From positions 4,836,001 through 4,900,000 of the forward strand of contig NZ_JAGGMQ010000001.1 in assembly GCF_017875465.1 (NCBI RefSeq): a stretch of 64,000 nt of DNA, in the 5' to 3' direction. A program made the position numbers and the translations under genes. How positions within the stretch are numbered: position 1 is the stretch's first letter; every line of letters starts with the position of its first letter. The notes under the pieces are model-generated. The model was not told the origin of the DNA. It worked only from the letters and a program-made list of their open reading frames with translations, and made no database searches. This DNA comes from Winslowiella toletana (GTDB lineage Bacteria; Pseudomonadota; Gammaproteobacteria; Enterobacterales; Enterobacteriaceae). Shown here in pieces: positions 14,106 to 24,750 of this stretch.

Positions 14106-15117
14106 GACACACCTGACCCCGGAGAAGCCACGTATGCTGAAACGTAAACTGCCGCCGGGTATGCCGCAAATTGCCGCTCTGATCCTGGTTCTGCTGGTCG
14201 ACAGTCTGGTTGCCAGTAACTTTTTTGCCATCCATTTGCAGGATGGCCGCCTGTTTGGCAGTCCCATTGATATTCTCAATCGCGCCGCGCCGGTGGCGCT
14301 GCTGGCGATTGGTATGACACTGGTAATCGCTACCGGCGGCATTGATCTGTCGGTGGGGGCGGTGATGGCGATTGCCGGCGCGACGGCGGCCACCATGACG
14401 GTGGCCGGTTACAGCCTGACGCTGGTGATCCTCGCCACGCTGGGTACCGGCATCGCCTGCGGCCTGTGGAATGGCGTGCTGGTGGCATTACTGAAGATCC
14501 AACCGTTTGTTGCCACCCTGATTCTGATGGTGGCGGGGCGCGGCATTGCTCAGCTGATTACTCAGGGACAGATTGTCACCTTTAACAGTGATGCACTGGC
14601 GCGGATTGGTAGCGGCACCCTGTGGTATTTGCCGGTGCCGGTATGGATCACTTTGCTGGTAGCGCTGCTGGTGTGGTGGTTAACCCGCAAAACCGCGCTC
14701 GGTCTGTTTATTGAGGCCGTGGGGATTAATCTGCGCGCGGCTCGCAATGCCGGGGTGACCGGCTGGCTGGTGGTGATGTCAACCTATGCGATTAGCGGGC
14801 TGTGCGCCGCAGTGGCAGGGTTGATTGTTGCCGCCGATATTCGCGGCGCCGATGCCAATAATGCCGGGCTGTGGCTGGAGCTGGATGCAATTCTGGCGGT
14901 GGTGATTGGCGGCGCTTCGCTGATGGGCGGGCGCTTTAATCTGGTGTTGTCGCTGATTGCCGCACTGATTATTCAGGCGATGAATACCGGTATTCTGCTT
15001 TCCGGTTTTCCACCGGAGCTGAATCAGGTGGTAAAAGCGATAGTGGTGATGTGCGTTCTGCTGTTGCAGTCGCCGCGCTTTATCCAGTTATTTAAACGAG
15101 GGCGTCGCCGTGATTAA
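14098..15117 (+). CDS. ytfT: Galactofuranose ABC transporter permease
   Basis: This 339-residue inner-membrane permease of the ribose/galactose BPD family has eight to ten hydrophobic segments. Blocks are AIGMTLVIATGGIDLSVGAVMA, the conserved coupling/substrate region, and LWLELDAILAVVIGGASLMGGRF. The ATG at 14098, behind GGAGGGGCGCA, is chosen over a TTG at 14077 and overlaps the ytfR stop (ATGCTTGA). E. coli YtfT is 341 aa. It forms the membrane pore together with YjfF. Confidence 0.93.
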   Translation: MLETHLTPEKPRMLKRKLPPGMPQIAALILVLLVDSLVASNFFAIHLQDGRLFGSPIDILNRAAPVALLAIGMTLVIATGGIDLSVGAVMAIAGATAATMTVAGYSLTLVILATLGTGIACGLWNGVLVALLKIQPFVATLILMVAGRGIAQLITQGQIVTFNSDALARIGSGTLWYLPVPVWITLLVALLVWWLTRKTALGLFIEAVGINLRAARNAGVTGWLVVMSTYAISGLCAAVAGLIVAADIRGADANNAGLWLELDAILAVVIGGASLMGGRFNLVLSLIAALIIQAMNTGILLSGFPPELNQVVKAIVVMCVLLLQSPRFIQLFKRGRRRD

Positions 15118-16096
15118 ACGTCATTTGCCATTAATGATTACCCTGCTGGTGTTTGTCGCCGGTTATCTGTTTTGTCTGAGCCAGTTTCCCGGTTTTGCCT
15201 CGACGCGAGTGATCTGCAATATCCTGACCGATAACGCTTTTCTCGGTATTATCGCGGTGGGCATGACCTTTGTGATCCTTTCCGGCGGTATCGATCTCTC
15301 TGTTGGGGCGGTGATCGCCTTTACCGGTGTATTTCTGGCACGGGCAATTGGGGATTTCAATCTGTCGCCGTGGCTGGCATTTAGCCTTATTCTGCTGGCC
15401 GGTTCGGCGTTTGGCGCCATGATGGGCTGGCTGATTGATGCGCTGAAAATCCCGGCATTTATTATTACCCTTGCCGGGATGTTTTTTCTGCGTGGTTGCA
15501 GCTATCTGGTGGCGGAAAGCTCGATCCCGATCGATCACCCGCTCTATTCCACGTTGTCTTCAATGGCGTGGAAAATTCCCGGCGGGGGGCGGCTCAGCCT
15601 GCTGGCGCTGATGATGCTGGTGGTGGTGGCGGCTGGAATTTTGCTGGCGCACCGCACGCGCTTTGGTAATCAGGTGTATGCGATTGGCGGCAACGCCACC
15701 TCGGCGCAGCTGATGGGGATTTCGACCCGCGCCACCACGGTGAAAATTTATATGTTGTCCTCCGGGCTGGCGACGCTGGCCGGAATCGTTTTCTCGTTGT
15801 ATACCTCGGCAGGCTATGCGCTGGCGGGTATGGGCGTTGAACTGGATGCGATTGCCTCGGTGGTGATTGGCGGAACCTTGCTATCTGGCGGTGTAGGGAC
15901 GGTGCTGGGGACGCTATTTGGCGTACTGATTCAGGGACTGATTCAGACCTGGATTAACTTTGACGGCACGCTGAGTTCCTGGTGGACCAAAATTGCCATC
16001 GGTATTTTGTTGTTTGGTTTTATTGCGTTGCAACGGCTGTTAACGGTGATCTGGGATCGGCAGCAAAATGCGCCGGTGAAGCGGTTGCATTCGTAA
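15110..16096 (+). CDS. yjfF: Galactofuranose ABC transporter permease
   Basis: This 328-residue partner permease of YtfT has the same fold, with blocks VGMTFVILSGGIDLSVGAVIAF and GMGVELDAIASVVIGGTLLSGGVGT. The start is GTG 15110, overlapping the ytfT stop by 8 bases (GTGATTAA). E. coli YjfF is 331 aa. It is the last gene of the operon, followed by a perfect terminator. Bases 15479-15607 of this gene have a decayed second copy at 19339-19467. Confidence 0.93.
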   Translation: MIKRHLPLMITLLVFVAGYLFCLSQFPGFASTRVICNILTDNAFLGIIAVGMTFVILSGGIDLSVGAVIAFTGVFLARAIGDFNLSPWLAFSLILLAGSAFGAMMGWLIDALKIPAFIITLAGMFFLRGCSYLVAESSIPIDHPLYSTLSSMAWKIPGGGRLSLLALMMLVVVAAGILLAHRTRFGNQVYAIGGNATSAQLMGISTRATTVKIYMLSSGLATLAGIVFSLYTSAGYALAGMGVELDAIASVVIGGTLLSGGVGTVLGTLFGVLIQGLIQTWINFDGTLSSWWTKIAIGILLFGFIALQRLLTVIWDRQQNAPVKRLHS

Positions 16097-16105
16097 GCGG
16101 CAAAG

Positions 16106-16129
16106 AAAAGGCTCCTGACGGAGCCTTTT
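16106..16129. terminator. Bidirectional terminator between yjfF and adhesin 1
   Basis: AAAAGGCTCC-TGAC-GGAGCCTTTT is a perfect stem flanked by A- and T-runs, so it can end transcripts of both yjfF (plus) and the adhesin gene (minus, stop at 16155). A near-copy lies at 19512-19536 after the second adhesin. Confidence 0.9.
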
Positions 16130-16154
16130 CAGGACTAATGGTTAGCTGAAAGCA

Positions 16155-18803
16155 TCAGACCGACTTGACGCAAACATAGCCTTCAAAATCAATGTTTACA
16201 TCATTAATAACGCCATGGGGTGATCCAATGGAATTGAGATCAGCCCCTTTGCCGTGACCGGTGGTCCAGTTGTCAGATATTTTATACGCCCAGTCCTGGA
16301 ACTCATCCGCTACTGACTGGGTGGCGAAATCGGCTTTGCCGGGGCCAAAATCATTGACATCAGAGCTGTTTAACAAGCGCCCACCACCGTAGTTTTGGCA
16401 ATTAGCAAGGGCAACTGAAGCTGGCGCACTATTACTAATCCGGTGATCCCTGATCAGGGTCCAGTAATATTTACCGTTGGTCTGCAGTACCGCACGGATG
16501 CCGATATCCATGGTTGCTGGCGTACCAATTGTCGCCTTAGCAGAGACTTTTGCCGTAATATCAGTGGTTGCCGCTCTGACTGCACTCAGGGTAATCTGCG
16601 TTTTACCGTCGCTATCGGTGGTTGAGTTTGGATTATAGCTACCTGCATTTGATTGCCAGGTAACTGTCGCACCCGGCACCAGATTGCCTTTCGCATCTTT
16701 TACCGTGGCAGTAAGCTGCGCCTCTTCACCACCAGTACCGGTTATTCTTGTCTTATCGCTGGTTAAAGTAACCACTTCCGCGGTGGTGATATCAGCAATA
16801 AAACGGGTGTCAACCTTCGCATTGATGCCGCCATTAGCGGTCAGCGTGGCATTCACGGTGACCGTCTCGGCAACGGTGTTGGTATAGCTGATGCTGGCCT
16901 TGCCCTGATCATCAGTCACTATCTGTAACGTATTGTTGACCGGTATTGCACTACCGCTAAGCGTAAAGTCCACCGCGATACCCGGGATTGGGTTGTCGTT
17001 GGCATCAGTGACAATCGCATCAACCTGGTTGGTCGCTACGCCATCTGCCACGCTGCCAGTAGTGATAGCAACGATGGTGTCACCTTTAAAGTGCGCAGTG
17101 CTGATATCAGCGGTCTGCTGCACGGTAACTGCTTTTAAGGCGGTGCCGTTAAATGATGGTGTCACCACCAGGCTGCCTACGCGGGTGCCTGACGTTAAGG
17201 TGGCTTCATATACGCCAGGGGCGTTCTCTTTAACTTCACCAATCGCCGCATGCTGCAACTTCATTGCCCGCTGCGCTTTCGGCTGATCCTTATGCTGGGT
17301 TTCTACCAGCGCCATGGTCATCGCCGGCGCCATATCGGTGATTGGCTGACCGTTGCCGTCAACCATCGTCACCTGTACCAGTGAGGCGTTGGTGCCGTCA
17401 GCGATAATGCTGGGCGGCGTCGCCGTTGTGGTACTGCCATCAACGCTGACGTCGGCGATATCCACCACAATCTGGCTGGTGGCGGTATGGGTATTGCCTT
17501 TCACATCGGTAATGGTGCCGCTCAGGGTATAGTTGTTGGTCCCCTTTATCTGCCAGGCGGGCAGGGTGATATTCAGACGGCCTTCACCGGCTGGCGTAAT
17601 CACGCCGCCTGCCGCGGTCAGCGCGGGGGATTCCCACTTGATGCCCTGTATCGCATAACTATTTTTTACCTTATAGCTTAATGGCAACAGGCTATGGCTT
17701 TTACCCGTGACGCTTTCCGGTAGTCCCAGCGTCAGGTACTCCTGTTTACGATAGTCGAGCACAATGTTGTTATTACGTTCCACCAGATCCAGACGGCTGC
17801 CGCTTAACAGGCGGGCGGCATCGACACGCGACGGGTCAATCTGCGACTGCCAGGATTCACCAAGACGGTAGTTCAGCGCGAGATTAAGCTGTGAATCCTG
17901 TTTACCGCTCTTGCCAGCACGATGCTCCGCGCCAACGGTGATCAGCGGAACCGGTGTATAATTTACGCCGCCGGTAAACGCCCATGGATTTTTCTGGCGA
18001 TTATCTTTGCCAAACAGCGCAACTTCATTCCCCTGGTACTGTTCATACATGACTTTGGCGCCGAGCTGCGGATAAGCGGGAAGCCAGCCTTCTGCACGGA
18101 CATCATAGCCATTGGCCGGGCGCTCATCATAGTCAGCAAAGTCCCGTGACTGATGCCAGTTGTTCAGACGCCAGTAGCTGTTGCCGGATAATTTCAGGTA
18201 GTCGCGCCAGGCTTCGACGCCAACGCCGAGTCGGCGGTTTTTACCAGTAAAATCATTGTCATAGAAAGTGTTAACTCCGAGCATCCAGTCCCCGGTCATG
18301 GTACGTACACCGGCGCCGATATTGCCGGTAGTACGCTGGTCGGCATTACGCAGACCTAACTGGGTAAATAACAGCGTGTTGTTGTTATCATACATCGGCA
18401 GCAGTACATCAGCCTGGCTGCCCTGCAGGGTGAATTTCTCATCGAGATTCAGCTGAACCTGAGCGGTACCAAACTGATTGAGCCAGCCTGAGAGCGCATT
18501 GTTCATTTCGCCAGTGGCGGCGGAACGCGCCATCCCGGCTGCAGCGGCGGCAGAGTTGTCCTGCGCCAGCAGTGAGCCTGCGGTAGCCAGTCGATCGCTC
18601 TGTTTCTGGTACAGCGCCTGTTCTTCCGGCGTCAGATTACCGCTCTGGTACCACTTCAGCGGCTCTTCTTTGGCGGTGGCGCTGTGAATATAGAATGGGG
18701 AGATAGCCAGCGCGATCTGCGCGGCTATCTGTGAAAGTACAAGGAACTTACCAGTTCTGCTCCCTGGGTTTTTAGCAATAGGGGAAAAACTTTTCTGTTT
18801 CAT
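16155..18803 (-). CDS. Inverse autotransporter adhesin (invasin/intimin family), copy 1
   Basis: This 882-residue surface protein has a basic N-terminal extension and signal-like hydrophobic stretch (about 18-44, FLVLSQIAAQIALAISPFYIHSATA). Next come the family linker WYQSGNLTPEEQALYQKQ and an outer-membrane beta-barrel at about 100-350, with hallmarks GVNTFYDNDFTG, RRLGVGVEAWRDY and DYDERPANGYD. Three Ig-like (Big_1) blocks follow, at about 460-560, 570-670 and 680-770. The C-terminal domain (about 780-882) has two Cys and ends YVCVKSV, resembling the lectin-like tips of this family. No LysM domain is visible. The barrel inserts in the outer membrane and exports the C-terminal arm, which would bind a surface or host. 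The ATG at 18803 gives a short AT-rich leader; ligand and regulation are unknown. Confidence 0.9.
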   Translation of the reverse strand: MKQKSFSPIAKNPGSRTGKFLVLSQIAAQIALAISPFYIHSATAKEEPLKWYQSGNLTPEEQALYQKQSDRLATAGSLLAQDNSAAAAAGMARSAATGEMNNALSGWLNQFGTAQVQLNLDEKFTLQGSQADVLLPMYDNNNTLLFTQLGLRNADQRTTGNIGAGVRTMTGDWMLGVNTFYDNDFTGKNRRLGVGVEAWRDYLKLSGNSYWRLNNWHQSRDFADYDERPANGYDVRAEGWLPAYPQLGAKVMYEQYQGNEVALFGKDNRQKNPWAFTGGVNYTPVPLITVGAEHRAGKSGKQDSQLNLALNYRLGESWQSQIDPSRVDAARLLSGSRLDLVERNNNIVLDYRKQEYLTLGLPESVTGKSHSLLPLSYKVKNSYAIQGIKWESPALTAAGGVITPAGEGRLNITLPAWQIKGTNNYTLSGTITDVKGNTHTATSQIVVDIADVSVDGSTTTATPPSIIADGTNASLVQVTMVDGNGQPITDMAPAMTMALVETQHKDQPKAQRAMKLQHAAIGEVKENAPGVYEATLTSGTRVGSLVVTPSFNGTALKAVTVQQTADISTAHFKGDTIVAITTGSVADGVATNQVDAIVTDANDNPIPGIAVDFTLSGSAIPVNNTLQIVTDDQGKASISYTNTVAETVTVNATLTANGGINAKVDTRFIADITTAEVVTLTSDKTRITGTGGEEAQLTATVKDAKGNLVPGATVTWQSNAGSYNPNSTTDSDGKTQITLSAVRAATTDITAKVSAKATIGTPATMDIGIRAVLQTNGKYYWTLIRDHRISNSAPASVALANCQNYGGGRLLNSSDVNDFGPGKADFATQSVADEFQDWAYKISDNWTTGHGKGADLNSIGSPHGVINDVNIDFEGYVCVKSV

Positions 18804-19275
18804 TAAATCGCTCTGCTTTAATTATGCATTTATATGCGAAGAAATAACTGGCCACTGCTTTGGGGCCGTTCCTCTTCAGTAAGAAAATTTATTAACCGCC
18901 TGGAAATCTGCTGGCGGGCAGAAGTAATAAACGACTTAACATGCAGGGTGAAAATGAAATTTACTTATATTTAAATGGTTTAGGTGTTTATCATGTCTTT
19001 ATCAGAGTATTATCATGAGTGATTTGCAACCGACTTATTGCTAAACGGCGACAGATAACATCGATGTCAGAAAAACTTAGCAATAACCCTTTCCTTTTTT
19101 CATATCAGATGAGAGAAAATTCCTAACGACATCAGGGTGAAAATTAACGTGAGCCATTGTTGTGAGTTTTTCAGGCTAATTAATGGTAAATGCCGTCAGG
19201 CATATTAAGCGATAAAAAGAAGGGGGAGGCCTGTCATTCTCTGAGCGGGTTAAACATCTTAAACCTTATTTCAGC
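18804..19275. other. AT-rich leader upstream of adhesin 1
   Basis: About 470 bases with markedly lower GC than the flanks, and no gene recognised. It presumably holds the adhesin 1 promoter (minus strand). Such AT-rich upstream regions are typical H-NS targets, and the H-NS partner Cnu is encoded in this window, but no specific site can be claimed. Confidence 0.4.
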
Positions 19276-19467
19276 ATGAAATGGCTGGCTGAGTGATGGG
19301 TGTGCGGACAATTCCGGCATTTATATTCTCCGCATCGGATGTTCTTACTGCGCGGTGGTTATTATCGGATGGCGGAAAGTTAGCTGCCGATCGAACACTC
19401 TTTCTGTGCCATGCAGTTATCGATGGTGTGGGAAATCTCTGACGGTGGGAAGCTGAGTTTGCTGGCG
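19276..19467 (+). pseudogene. yjfF: Decayed internal fragment of a second yjfF
   Basis: Bases 19339-19467 align codon by codon, without gaps, to 15479-15607 of intact yjfF (residues about 124-166). By hand count about 91 of 129 bases match, many differences falling at third positions. The frame reads M-F-L-L-R-G...A-E-S-stop-L-P-I-E-H...G-G-K-L-S-L-L-A against M-F-F-L-R-G...A-E-S-S-I-P-I-D-H...G-G-R-L-S-L-L-A, with an in-frame TAG at 19381. Upstream, 19276-19338 still resembles yjfF (ATGGCTGGCTGA, CCGGCATTTAT) but contains small insertions and deletions that shift the frame. The 3' half of yjfF is missing; the terminator homologous to the one after yjfF follows at 19512. This is not a functional gene. 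Confidence 0.8.
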
Positions 19468-19511
19468 GGAAGGGGGCTGGAGGAGTTTGCTTCAGTGCTG
19501 ATACTGGCAAG

Positions 19512-19536
19512 AAAAAAGGCTCCTTGCGGAGCCTTT
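19512..19536 (-). terminator. Terminator after adhesin 2
   Basis: Stem AAAGGCTCC/GGAGCCTTT with loop TTGC, preceded on the plus strand by more A (a T-run on the minus strand), 9 bases beyond the stop of the 1108-residue adhesin. It shares the stem GGCTCC...GGAGCC with the terminator after yjfF at 16106. Confidence 0.85.
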
Positions 19537-19545
19537 AGCATTTAA

Positions 19546-22500
19546 CTAAATATTTTTAACACAGACATATTTCCATGAGCCCTGGTCAAGTTGACGATCG
19601 ACCGTGGTGCCAATAAGGCCCGGGCCGTCCTGCGAACTGAGGTAAGCTCCGGTGGTTCCCCAGCTGCCCACCAGCGGATAATAGCCGGGTTTAAACTCTC
19701 CCTGCACCTGCATATTGCTAAAGTCTATCTGACCGGCAGCGGTACCGAAATCGCTTAAATCACTGCGCTCAAGCATCCTGTCAGCACTGCCGCGACTCCT
19801 GCAGGCCAGGATGGCGTGATCTTCCAGATCGGTGCCATAGCGGGTGCTGAGTGTCCAGTAATATTTACCCGAAGCTTGCATAACCGCAGTGATCTCCACC
19901 AGCTGATTGCCGACAGGCTGATAATCTGACCCATCGATGCTGGTGGTTACTGTCGCCATCGCATTCTGTGACGCAACCAGAACCGGAGCTGTCAGGTAAA
20001 CCGTTGCCTGACCACTGCTATCGGTTTGTGAGGTTGCGTCGATGCTACCCAGGTTACTGCGCCATATGACCGTAGCATTTGGTATCAGGTGACCATAGTT
20101 ATCCTCAACTCTTGCGGTTAATTCAGCCCGTTCCATACCTGTACCGGTAATTTGCGACTTGCTGGATTGCAAGCTGACTACGCGCGCCGTTTTGATGTCG
20201 ACTGTAAAAATGACCGGTTGTGCATTGGCGCTTTTACCGTTAACTGTCGCCGTCACCTGTGCATTGCCCAGTGCTGTGCTGCTCAGGGTAATGGTTGCCA
20301 CACCATTATTATCAGTGTTGCTGCTATTGCTGCTATTGCTGCTAAGGTCGCCATGGCTGGTTTGCCAGCTGACGCTGATATCCGGCACCAGGTTGCCAGC
20401 GGCGTCCTTAACGGTTGCGGAGAAGGTCGCCTTATCACTGCCGTTGGCCACAACCTGGGTCTTGTCTACGGTAACCGCACCGTCGATCTGTCCACTGTCG
20501 CTATCGGCGGTAAAGTTAACCAGCGGGGCATTGACCGCCGCCCGGGCGCCAACTCTGGCCGTCACCTGCGCTTCACCTGCTGAGGTGGAGCTGAGCATAA
20601 TCGTCGCTTTGCCGTTCGCATCGGTAGTGCTGGTTCCCCCAGTCAGCGCGCCGCGGTTGGTGGTCCACTCAATGGCAATATTCGGCACCAGGTTGCCGCT
20701 GCCATCCTTAACGATAGCGCTGTAGGTCACCTGCTCGCGGCCATTGGCGACAGCGGTGGGTTTATCGCGGGTCAGATCGCGACTGTCGATACCCGCCTGG
20801 GCGCTATCGGCGATAAAGGTTACCGCTTTAGTGATGCCTGCACCGTTTACCGTTGCAGTAACTTGTGCATCCTCTGCCACCGTGTGACTCAGCGTGATGG
20901 TAGCTTTACCCGCTGCGCTGCTAATGCTGCTGGCGCCGCTAAGCACCCCGGCACTGGTGCTCCAGTTGACGGTGATCCCTGCCAGCGGCTTACCACTGTC
21001 GCCGGTTACCAGCGCAGTAAAGGTGGCTTTATCAGCGCCATTGGCCGGTAGCTGATCTCTGTCAACCGTCAGGTTTCCGTCTTTAAGCGATGCATTTTCG
21101 CTGGTCAGCTCAAGGGTCATCGTTTTTAACATTATGCCGTTAATGGATGGCGTTACCACGACGCTGCCATTGCGGGTACCTGAGGTGAGCACTGCTTCGT
21201 AGACACCTGCGGAGGTTTCCTTCACCTCAGTGATGGTTGCATTCTGCTGCTTCAGCGTACGCTGCTCCTGCGCAAGGGTCTGTTTTAATGCTATTTTCAG
21301 CGCAGACGCCATATCTGTCACTGCTTTAGCATCTTTATCCAGCAGTGTGACGGTCACAACCGAAGTGCTGGCGCCATCAGCCGGGATAGCTGGCGGCATG
21401 GCGGCAATGCTGCTGCTGTCGGCGCTGATGTCGGCGATTTCCACCATAATCGGCATGGCGGCGCTGTGGCTGTTGCCTTCCACATCATAAACGGTGCCGG
21501 TCAGGGTATAGCTGTTACTCCCGGTAACCTGCCAGGCGGGCAGGGTAATATTAAGACGCCCGTCACCGGCTGGAGTAATAATGCCGCCCGCCGTTGTCAG
21601 CGCCGGTGAGTGCCAGTCAATGCGCTGTATCGGATGGGTATTTTTCACCACAAAGCTGACCGGCAGCACACTGCGGCTTTTACCACTGGCTTTGTCCGGC
21701 AGGCCCAGCGTCAGCAGTTCGCGTTTACGGTAATCCAGCACAATTGTGTTATTACGTTCAACCAGATCGTAGCGGCTGCCGCTTAGCAGGCGTGTGGCGC
21801 CAACGGCGGAGGCATCAAGCTGCTTATGCCAGGCTTCGCCCAGACGGTAGTTTAGCGCCAGGCTAAGCTGAGAATCCTGCTGACCGTTTTTACCGGCCCG
21901 GTGTTCAGCGCCGACGGTAAGCAGCGGGAAGGGCGTATAGCTGACGCCGCCGGTAAACGCCCATGGATTTTTCTGGCGATTATCTTTGCCAGACAGCGCA
22001 ACCTCATTCCCCTGGTACTGTTCATACATAACTTTGGCGCCGAGCTGCGGGTATGCGGGCAGCCAGCCTTCCACGCGCAGGTCGTAACCATTTGCCGGAC
22101 GTTCGTCGTAGTCGGCGAAATCACGCGACTGACGCCAGTCGCTCAGTCGCCAGTAGCTGTTGCCGGACAATCTCAGGTAGTCGCGCCAGGCTTCGACGCC
22201 AACGCCAAGACGGCGGTTATTGCCGGTAAAATCGTTGTCGTAGAAAGTGTTAACGCCAAACATCCAGTCGCCAGTAAAGGTACGGACGCCCGCGCCGAGG
22301 TTGCCGGTGGTGCGTTTATCCATCCGGCGAACACCGAGCTGGCTGAACAGCAGGCTGGTGTCATTTTCATACAGCGGCGCCAGCACATCGGCCTGGCTAC
22401 CTTCCAGAGCGAATTTTTCATCGAAATGCAGCTGCACGCGGGCATTGCCGAACTGGTTCAGCCAGCCAGAGGTAGCGTTACCAAGTTCAGCGGCGGCGGC

Positions 22501-22791
22501 GGAGCGCGCCATCCCGGCAGCGGCCTGACCCGGATTATCCTGTGACATCAGGGTCGCTGCAGTGGTCATCCGTTCGCTTTGCAGGCGATATTGCGCCTGT
22601 TCCTGCGGACTAAGATTGCCGCTCTGATACCACTTAATATCCGCTGGAGTGGCGGCAGCCTGCACGGTGGGAAGATAACAAGGGCTGATAGCAACGGAAA
22701 TCTGTAATGCTATCTGGGATATTACCACCAGCCTGCCCCAGCCCCGGTCAGTTTTTTTTGTAATGTCTGAAAGAGTTTGCTTAGTCATCAT
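19546..22791 (-). CDS. Inverse autotransporter adhesin (invasin/intimin family), copy 2
   Basis: Starting at the paired ATGs 22791/22788 this is about 1081 residues; the frame extends to 22872 but the extra N-terminus is not family-like. It has the same layout as copy 1: a signal-like stretch WGRLVVISQIALQISVAISPCY, linker WYQSGNLSPQEQAQY, and a barrel with GVNTFYDNDFTG and DYDERPANGYDLRVEGWLPA. About five Big_1-type Ig blocks follow (each opening like ANGADKATFTALV, ANGREQVTYSAIV or ANGSDKATFSATV), then a C-terminal domain with two Cys ending YVCVKNI. Barrel DNA of the two copies is nearly identical over long stretches, whereas the Ig arm here is longer and the tip differs. Both probably project adhesive tips of different length or specificity. 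Confidence 0.9.
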   Translation of the reverse strand: MMTKQTLSDITKKTDRGWGRLVVISQIALQISVAISPCYLPTVQAAATPADIKWYQSGNLSPQEQAQYRLQSERMTTAATLMSQDNPGQAAAGMARSAAAAELGNATSGWLNQFGNARVQLHFDEKFALEGSQADVLAPLYENDTSLLFSQLGVRRMDKRTTGNLGAGVRTFTGDWMFGVNTFYDNDFTGNNRRLGVGVEAWRDYLRLSGNSYWRLSDWRQSRDFADYDERPANGYDLRVEGWLPAYPQLGAKVMYEQYQGNEVALSGKDNRQKNPWAFTGGVSYTPFPLLTVGAEHRAGKNGQQDSQLSLALNYRLGEAWHKQLDASAVGATRLLSGSRYDLVERNNTIVLDYRKRELLTLGLPDKASGKSRSVLPVSFVVKNTHPIQRIDWHSPALTTAGGIITPAGDGRLNITLPAWQVTGSNSYTLTGTVYDVEGNSHSAAMPIMVEIADISADSSSIAAMPPAIPADGASTSVVTVTLLDKDAKAVTDMASALKIALKQTLAQEQRTLKQQNATITEVKETSAGVYEAVLTSGTRNGSVVVTPSINGIMLKTMTLELTSENASLKDGNLTVDRDQLPANGADKATFTALVTGDSGKPLAGITVNWSTSAGVLSGASSISSAAGKATITLSHTVAEDAQVTATVNGAGITKAVTFIADSAQAGIDSRDLTRDKPTAVANGREQVTYSAIVKDGSGNLVPNIAIEWTTNRGALTGGTSTTDANGKATIMLSSTSAGEAQVTARVGARAAVNAPLVNFTADSDSGQIDGAVTVDKTQVVANGSDKATFSATVKDAAGNLVPDISVSWQTSHGDLSSNSSNSSNTDNNGVATITLSSTALGNAQVTATVNGKSANAQPVIFTVDIKTARVVSLQSSKSQITGTGMERAELTARVEDNYGHLIPNATVIWRSNLGSIDATSQTDSSGQATVYLTAPVLVASQNAMATVTTSIDGSDYQPVGNQLVEITAVMQASGKYYWTLSTRYGTDLEDHAILACRSRGSADRMLERSDLSDFGTAAGQIDFSNMQVQGEFKPGYYPLVGSWGTTGAYLSSQDGPGLIGTTVDRQLDQGSWKYVCVKNI
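20318..20344. repeat. Three 9-bp repeats in an Ig domain of adhesin 2
   Basis: TTGCTGCTA occurs three times head to tail on the plus strand. On the coding strand it gives a Ser-Ser-Asn tripeptide repeat in a surface loop of an Ig-like domain. In-frame slippage would vary the loop length without frameshift. Confidence 0.8.
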
Positions 22792-23187
22792 ATTCTGCTC
22801 AAGTCTTAAATAATAAAATCGATTATTTTGTCCGCAAGGGTTTGCAAAAAGCTCGCGTAAATAAACGATCAATGCCTGAGCAGATAAATACGTTTTACAT
22901 ATGTTTTAACAGTCACCTGTGTGCTGAGGTTTTTTTCAGGTTTTAATCAGATGATTCATAGAGAAATCGGTTTAAATCTATTGATGATTGATGCAGGGCT
23001 GGAGGGGAGCGGAGAAGTTTCGTGATACCACCCTTATTTACTGCAGCGTGGAGGAGACGATTCTTATCGACTGGATGTCAATTATATGACCGCTATTTTA
23101 GCATGTAAATAGTAAGGCAGTTTATTTATGGTAATAAGGTTATTAATATTGCGCGGGAAACAGATATTAACCTTGCGGGTGTAAATT
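22792..23187. other. Intergenic region adhesin 2/araA
   Basis: About 400 AT-rich bases between two minus-strand genes. It must carry the adhesin 2 promoter close to 22800-22950. The araBA terminator closes its right end. No gene, further yjfF relic or convincing operator was recognised. Confidence 0.4.
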
Positions 23188-23214
23188 AAAAGGCGGGGTT
23201 TAATCCGCCTTTTT
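23188..23214 (-). terminator. Terminator after araA
   Basis: Stem AAAAGGCGG...CCGCCTTTT with loop GGTTTAAT lies 31 bases past the araA stop and has T-runs on both strands. It ends the araBA transcript and insulates the adhesin 2 promoter region. Confidence 0.85.
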
Positions 23215-23244
23215 AATAATGCTGTTAAGTATAGAGTTTATTAG

Positions 23245-24750
23245 TTAACGCATATTCAGACGATAATAAGCCTCGTTCCAGCGCAGCGCATCCTTAAATG
23301 CTGGCAGGGTGGTGTCGTTATCAATCACCAGCACTTCAATACCATGCATTTCAGCGTACAGGCGCATATCCTCCACATCCAGCGCCTGGCTGAATACCGT
23401 ATGATGCGCGCCGCCGCCGAGAATCCACGCCTCCGCTGCGGTTGCCAGCGTCGGCTGAGCGCGCCAGATGGCACGTGCCACCGGCAGTTTCGGCAGTGGT
23501 TTCGGCTGTTCAATCGCATCGACCACATTAACCAGCAGGCGGAAGCGGTCGCCCATATCCACTACGCTGGCATTAACCGCCTGTCCGGCAGGCGCCGAGA
23601 AGATCAGACGCGCCGGATCGGCTTTGCCGCCAATCCCCAGATACTGCACATCAATTAACGGTTTCTCCTCACGGGCAATCGACGGGCACACTTCCAGCAT
23701 ATGGGATCCCAGCACCAGGTCGTTACCTGGTGCAAAGTGATAGGTATAGTCCTCCATAAAGGAGGTGCCACCTGGCAGGCCCTGCGCCATCACTTTGAAA
23801 ATATGCAGCAGCGCGGCGGTTTTCCAGTCGCCTTCACCAGCAAAGCCATAGCCCTGCGCCATCAGACGCTGCACCGCAAGGCCCGGTAACTGCGTCATAC
23901 CATGCAGGGTCTGGAAGTTAGTGGTAAAAGCATGACAATCTTCCGCCTCGAGGAAGCGCTTGATGCCAAGTTCAATACGCGCCGCATCCAGCACGTTCTG
24001 GCGCTTCTCGCCATTCACCGCCGCTACGGCGGTAAATTGATACTGGCTTTCATACTCGTCGATTAGCGCACTGACGTCGCCATCGGAAACCTGGTTAATC
24101 ACTTCCACCAGATCGCCGACGCCCCAGCCATTGACGGCATAACCAAACTGGATCTGGGCGCCCACTTTATCACCCTCGGTGACCGCCACTTCCCGCATAT
24201 TGTCGCCAAAGCGCGCCACTTTCAGCTGCTGACTGGCCCGTTTCGCCGCCGCGCCGCGCATCCATCTGGCGATGCGCTGGTGGCTGAGCGGATCCTGCCA
24301 GTGGCCGGTGATCACGCTGTGCTGCAGATGCATGCGCGCACCGATAAAGCCGAACTCACGACCGCCGTGCGCGGTCTGGTTGAGGTTCATAAAGTCCATA
24401 TCCATGCTGTCCCACGGGATCGCCGCGTTAAACTGGGTATGGAACTGCATCAGTGGCTTGTTGAGGATCGACAGGCCACCAATCCACATTTTTGCCGGCG
24501 AAAAGGTGTGCAGCCAGGTGATAATCCCGAGGCAGCTGTTATCAAAATTGGCGTCACGACAGAGTGCCAGCGCTTCATCCGGACTTTTCACCAGCGGTTT
24601 CAGCTGCAGTTTAAACGGCAGACTGGCCTCGCGATTTATGCCGTCAACCACCTGCTGCGCGTGCTGCTCTACCTGGCGCAACGTTTCGGCGCCATAGAGA
24701 TGCTGCGTGCCAATCACAAACCACACGCTAAGCGCGTTAACCTGTTCCAT
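23245..24750 (-). CDS. araA: L-arabinose isomerase
   Basis: This 501-residue cytosolic Mn-dependent enzyme converts L-arabinose to L-ribulose, the first catabolic step. Recognisable blocks are [18 protein letters not shown] at the N-terminus, [30 protein letters not shown] and [13 protein letters not shown], which hold conserved catalytic Glu and His residues. Length is that of E. coli AraA (500 aa). It lies 11 bases behind araB with ribosome site AAGGAGTGG. No araD follows, unlike E. coli araBAD. Confidence 0.97.

Follow-up and report, generated by a model that had tools for sequence, protein, structure and literature searches.

The intergenic stretch between two paralogous adhesin genes of Winslowiella toletana carries a decayed fragment of the sugar transporter gene yjfF, and we consider this feature, with a probability of about 80%, to be the scar of a segmental duplication that would have copied part of yjfF together with its terminator, the neighbouring adhesin gene and the region upstream of it. 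The window analyzed here, that is, the whole stretch of 64,000 nucleotides, contains the following features of this locus:

15110-16096, plus strand: intact yjfF, sugar ABC transporter permease (ORF of 328 aa; Pfam BPD_transp_2), the last gene of ytfQRT-yjfF
16108-16127, no strand assigned: inverted-repeat terminator with a GGCTCC stem between the convergent yjfF and adhesin A, one of two exact-motif places
16155-18803, minus strand: adhesin A, predicted inverse autotransporter of 882 aa (IAT_beta, Big_1, Invasin_D3)
18804-19140, minus strand: adhesin A upstream region, homologous to that of B; right limit approximate, one alignment continuing to about 19212
19141-19282, no strand assigned: stretch expected to contain the duplication junction, without recognizable ytfQRT or yjfF 5' sequence
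19283-19467, plus strand: yjfF relic block 1, equivalent to yjfF nt 316-498 (window 15425-15607); frameshifted, its gapless portion interrupted by a single in-frame stop
about 19461-19508, plus strand: yjfF relic block 2, equivalent to yjfF nt 711-762 (window 15820-15871); its start overlaps block 1 ambiguously
19516-19535, no strand assigned: second terminator copy, now behind adhesin B
19546-22788, minus strand: adhesin B, predicted inverse autotransporter and paralogue of A (IAT_beta, Big_1, Invasin_D3)
22789-23091, minus strand: adhesin B upstream region, homologous to that of A; right limit approximate

Sequence comparison confirmed that 19283-19467 is a relic of yjfF, with the intact gene at 15110-16096 being its source or sister. 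The preliminary description had reported a gapless block of about 70% identity interrupted by a single in-frame stop, and this proved exact: 19339-19467 matches 15479-15607 at 91 of 129 bases (70.5%) with one in-frame stop. When this block of 129 bases was compared without gaps at every position on either strand of the window, only the block itself and yjfF gave at least 70/129 identities. The frameshifted similarity claimed further upstream was also recovered by a gapped local alignment of 19283-19467 with 15425-15607 (score 98, with identity at 134 of 179 aligned positions), which reaches 19283, whereas the earlier limit of 19276 fits by eye only. In 500 dinucleotide-preserving shuffles, the comparison that the preliminary description had proposed, the mean score was 22 and the maximum 35, the latter falling to 30 once the terminators were omitted. 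Throughout the organism's own 5.3 Mb genome, the relic had no match at E ≤ 0.001 other than itself and yjfF. A chance likeness of intergenic DNA to yjfF, for which we saw no supporting point, is practically negligible in view of these shuffles, and it is further refuted by the collinear yjfF pieces present in a second species and by the terminator common to yjfF and the relic, both described below.

The second relic block is separated from chance by a thin margin, scoring 20 where 1000 shuffles reached up to 18 (blastn E 0.001). In Winslowiella arboricola BAC 15a-03b (genome G005), the orthologous stretch between the adhesin genes contains yjfF nt 316-501, followed by about nt 666-747 and the terminator; there the second yjfF piece is longer than block 2 of the window and scores 35, compared with 22 for the best shuffle, the loss of mid-yjfF sequence being somewhat greater in the window relic. 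The remaining portions, yjfF nt 502-665 and 763-985, were unrecognizable in the relic of either species. The disabling lesions of the relic comprise the in-frame stop and frameshifting gaps, and its changes are distributed roughly evenly over codon positions 1, 2, and 3, a neutral pattern that shows no coding constraint. Differences from the yjfF of both species amount to 15/71, 19/73, and 17/71 at the three positions for the window relic and to 24/95, 34/95, and 33/96 for the W. arboricola relic, while the two relics differ from one another at 21/70, 24/71, and 26/70. With its homology to intact yjfF beyond chance, its disabling lesions, and its freedom from coding constraint, the relic qualifies as a pseudogene.

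Eleven changes are common to both relics and were found in none of 30 yjfF rows from 29 genomes (this count includes the second yjfF copy of genome G003). These shared, relic-only changes imply that the copying, and the onset of decay, came before the window species and W. arboricola split. Between the two species, 136 of 186 fourfold sites of intact yjfF are kept. The relic is kept at 143/228 positions, which is less than the adhesin A upstream region (256/333) and the terminator at 19512-19536 (23 of 25 bases). This argues against the stretch now being a functional element derived from yjfF, such as a small RNA or a leader, as does a search of 14900-23300 against Rfam, in which no match was found at the gathering threshold; its position between two adhesin genes would suit such an element, yet we regard this explanation as very unlikely, and the relic itself is most likely without function.

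The arrangement around the relic repeats that around the intact gene. As the preliminary description had it, relic, terminator, and adhesin follow one another in the order of yjfF, terminator, and adhesin and share the stem GGCTCC...GGAGCC, and both terminators and the order were found as described. Two places in the 5.3 Mb genome carry the exact motif AAGGCTCC-N4-GGAGCCTT, one behind yjfF and the other behind the relic. This count was restricted to the perfect stem with a loop of four bases, and each place is scored on both strands because the motif is a palindrome. We relied on this genome-wide motif count because a terminator and promoter scan yielded numbers barely above the shuffle means (9 and 8 sites against 8.1 and 6.7). 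The second terminator forms a minus-strand stem of nine pairs, after which comes a T-rich stretch. Across 30 yjfF loci from 29 genomes, GGCTCC...GGAGCC lies within 120 bases after yjfF at three (G000, G005, and G010), which are also the three loci with an adhesin match in the approximately 1.5 kb fetched behind yjfF.

By domain content, both adhesins are predicted to be inverse autotransporters (IAT beta-domain, 358.7 and 349.2 bits against a curated cut-off of 22.3), and we saw nothing unusual in them for this intimin/invasin family. They share 71% amino acid identity over their first 445 residues. The regions upstream of A and B are homologous as well: in comparisons of A with B in either species, local alignments scored 29.5, 41.5, 45, and 46 against shuffle maxima of 27.5, 23.5, 28, and 25, none of 1000 shuffles reaching the score in any of the four, and reverse-complement controls scored 13 to 19. 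The weakest of these comparisons, and a narrow one, is that of the window's own A and B (29.5 against 27.5). The homology indicates that the copied unit included the adhesin upstream region. At the far edge of the adhesin B upstream region, a promoter-like TTTACA-17-TATAAT (11/12) was noted at 23081-23109 on the minus strand, in a promoter scan that overall was hardly enriched.

Collinear homology on both sides was thus found for every part of the unit, which comprised part of yjfF, the terminator, the adhesin gene, and its upstream region. The preliminary description had proposed a tandem duplication of yjfF and adhesin followed by loss of most of the spare yjfF. Duplication of such a unit and subsequent decay of the yjfF part are supported by the relic, the gene order, the terminator, and the relatives, and the copying of a contiguous unit stands as well; that the copy was made locally is likely rather than proven. 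The copying of a whole yjfF is not required: no sequence of ytfQRT or yjfF nt 1-315 was found at 19130-19285 or in its W. arboricola counterpart (best E 0.023, both matches on the opposite strand), so the whole gene need never have been copied. The junction should lie within approximately 19141-19282. The same relic would be expected had ytfQRT-yjfF and the adhesin gene been copied as one block and all but a piece of yjfF deleted, and the gaps within the relic attest to a loss of material at this place. The missing traces of ytfQRT and of the yjfF 5' part speak against such a whole-operon duplication, albeit weakly after so much decay, and we consider it a real but minor possibility beside the copying of the shorter unit.

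Synteny in relatives, a comparison likewise suggested in the preliminary description, further supports the duplication. The W. arboricola locus, which contains two adhesin genes and the orthologous relic, reads araB, araA, adhesin B, adhesin A, yjfF, ytfT, ytfR, ytfQ, which is the window order reversed. Relatives of yjfF were found in 29 of 37 genus genomes at E ≤ 1e-60, and the relic as query matched 11 of the 37: the genome that it comes from, nine others by way of yjfF at verified positions, and G005, in this search by way of the terminator only. Genome G010, whose locus in part reads N, has one adhesin gene facing yjfF at the locus, and other ORFs separate it from araA. The several ORFs between araA and the adhesin gene (L046, 2498-6113) indicate that genes of other kinds are also taken up here; one of them resembles an EamA-type transporter. 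Genome G034, the sister of G010 in the yjfF trees (96.3/98), carries no adhesin gene behind yjfF (L055, 6840-7734) and has a degenerate terminator stem after it. Beginning some 45 bases behind yjfF, a 537-base stretch of G034 is 84% identical to one of G010 (within L046, 2296-6400) that lies there beyond the adhesin gene, between it and araA. No adhesin remnants were found in the yjfF-araA gaps of G034 or of loci L047, L048, L053, and L054. A single adhesin gene facing yjfF fits as the older state, but the gene may have been either lost from G034 or gained by G010.

The duplication could also predate the split from G010, with B lost there, because the grouping of adhesins A and B apart from that of G010 has weak support (36/65) in a tree of 16 sequences, of which 10 were outgroups from the genus, picked among the loci collected beforehand, and because the G010 adhesin upstream region resembles that of A (scores 27 and 25.5, reached by none of 1000 shuffles each) and not that of B (13.5 and 13, reached by 246 and 391 of 1000 shuffles). 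The window and W. arboricola each have two adhesin units at the yjfF 3' end, whereas G010 has one and G034 has none. With such variation, the yjfF 3' end might be a recurrent docking point at which adhesin units are gained and lost through recombination at the end of yjfF, leaving yjfF pieces as scars, a view that we find quite doubtful next to a single segmental duplication.

In a scan of named genomes, two loci were found, in W. arboricola and in Ewingella; the adhesin of Ewingella americana (L060), 50% identical, lies in a 23 kb locus in which none of the window's ytf, yjfF, and ara proteins that were compared found a match. A family-wide search reached E 1e-170 in 8 of 392 evenly drawn genomes, a draw that is not exhaustive, given that G005 and G010 pass this threshold and were not drawn. 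Genome G003 shows two ytfQRT-yjfF-ara loci on two contigs (L049 and L050) in an assembly with 10% contamination, and this double locus is probably an assembly matter.

As regards the origin of the copy, local copying is the simplest account and likely. The alternative would be import, in which a strain that itself had yjfF, terminator, and adhesin in this order would have been the donor of a segment that entered beside the resident copy by recombination, with subsequent decay of the donor's yjfF end. Such a history finds room in the approximately unbiased (AU) test on trimmed blocks, which allows the relics outside the clade of G000, G005, G010, and G034 (p 0.61) as well as within their own lineage (p 0.298) and rejected no constrained placement, the lowest p, 0.078, belonging to a grouping with G010 and G034. 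It would also accord with the varying number of adhesin genes at the locus among relatives (two, one, or none) and with the identity of the window relic, which is as high with the yjfF of G003, G004, and G031 (154/236 each) as with its own (153/236). Against import, both relics carry states shared by G000 and G005 and rare elsewhere (window relic at 3 of 3 such columns, W. arboricola relic at 2 of 4) and seldom those diagnostic of G010 and G034 (0 of 5 and 1 of 6, respectively). At fourfold sites of the gapless block, for which three genomes were compared, the window relic agrees with its own yjfF at 16/23 and with that of G005 at 18/23, compared with 11/21 for G010. The W. arboricola relic is closest to the yjfF of G000 and G005 (194/290 each). 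A tree on a looser alignment likewise placed the relics on the G000/G005 side (99.9/84), with support of 0/37 for their place within it. No closer donor was seen: with G000, G005, and G010 set aside, whole-length matches do not exceed 51% (G311), and partial matches reach 55% (G026) and 61% (Ewingella). Import would require an extra event as well, and we consider it unlikely compared with local copying.

We make no claim of own-lineage origin, since the placement obtained on the looser alignment moved after trimming and the AU test rejected no placement; on the trimmed blocks, the free tree set the relics beside G003 and G004 with support of 0/57. The relic trees and the AU test left out one of the 30 yjfF rows, the second G003 copy.

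We propose the following history for the segmental duplication. The older locus would have consisted of ytfQRT-yjfF, a terminator between convergent genes, and one inverse-autotransporter adhesin gene facing yjfF, as in G010. A contiguous unit, including at least yjfF from about nt 316, the terminator, the adhesin gene, and approximately 300 bp of upstream region, would then have been copied before the window species and W. arboricola diverged, the copy lying head to tail with the first unit, on the side of araA. Presumably redundant, the spare yjfF piece, of which no 5' part is seen, would have lost parts and drifted without constraint. The second terminator probably stayed intact beside the decayed relic because adhesin B is transcribed towards it, so that selection would have retained it. 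Both adhesins would have been retained and have diverged, perhaps towards distinct roles.

Liu et al. 2004 (PMC522871) count disabled native duplications among the three sources of pseudogenes in prokaryotes, and they describe these pseudogenes as enriched for horizontal transfer and stress failed transfers. The relic resembles the class of disabled native duplications in being a broken partial copy, with a stop, frameshifts, and missing parts, of a gene that is intact in the same genome, and differs in that the broken gene here was probably a passenger of a retained adhesin gene and that a native origin is not proven. The inverse-autotransporter locus yrIlm of Yersinia ruckeri is described as present in two or three copies (PMC10174560). 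The multiplication of an inverse-autotransporter locus is common to both systems. The copy number of yrIlm is reported to differ among isolates of one species, whereas the adhesins of the window are paralogues at the 71% identity given above, and their duplication is older than a species split. A literature search for papers containing both 'Winslowiella' and 'adhesin' found none.

An event of this kind is well known and ordinary, and no general view is altered by the relic. The preliminary description was correct in its facts and in its main reading. New beyond it are the second small yjfF piece, the larger unit, which includes the adhesin upstream region, and an age greater than that of the split from W. 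arboricola. The locus provides a clear example, datable relative to the divergence of two species, of the doubling of a surface-adhesin gene, in which passenger DNA decays while adhesin and terminator persist, and it illustrates that the intergenic stretch between paralogues can serve as a readable record of the copied unit.
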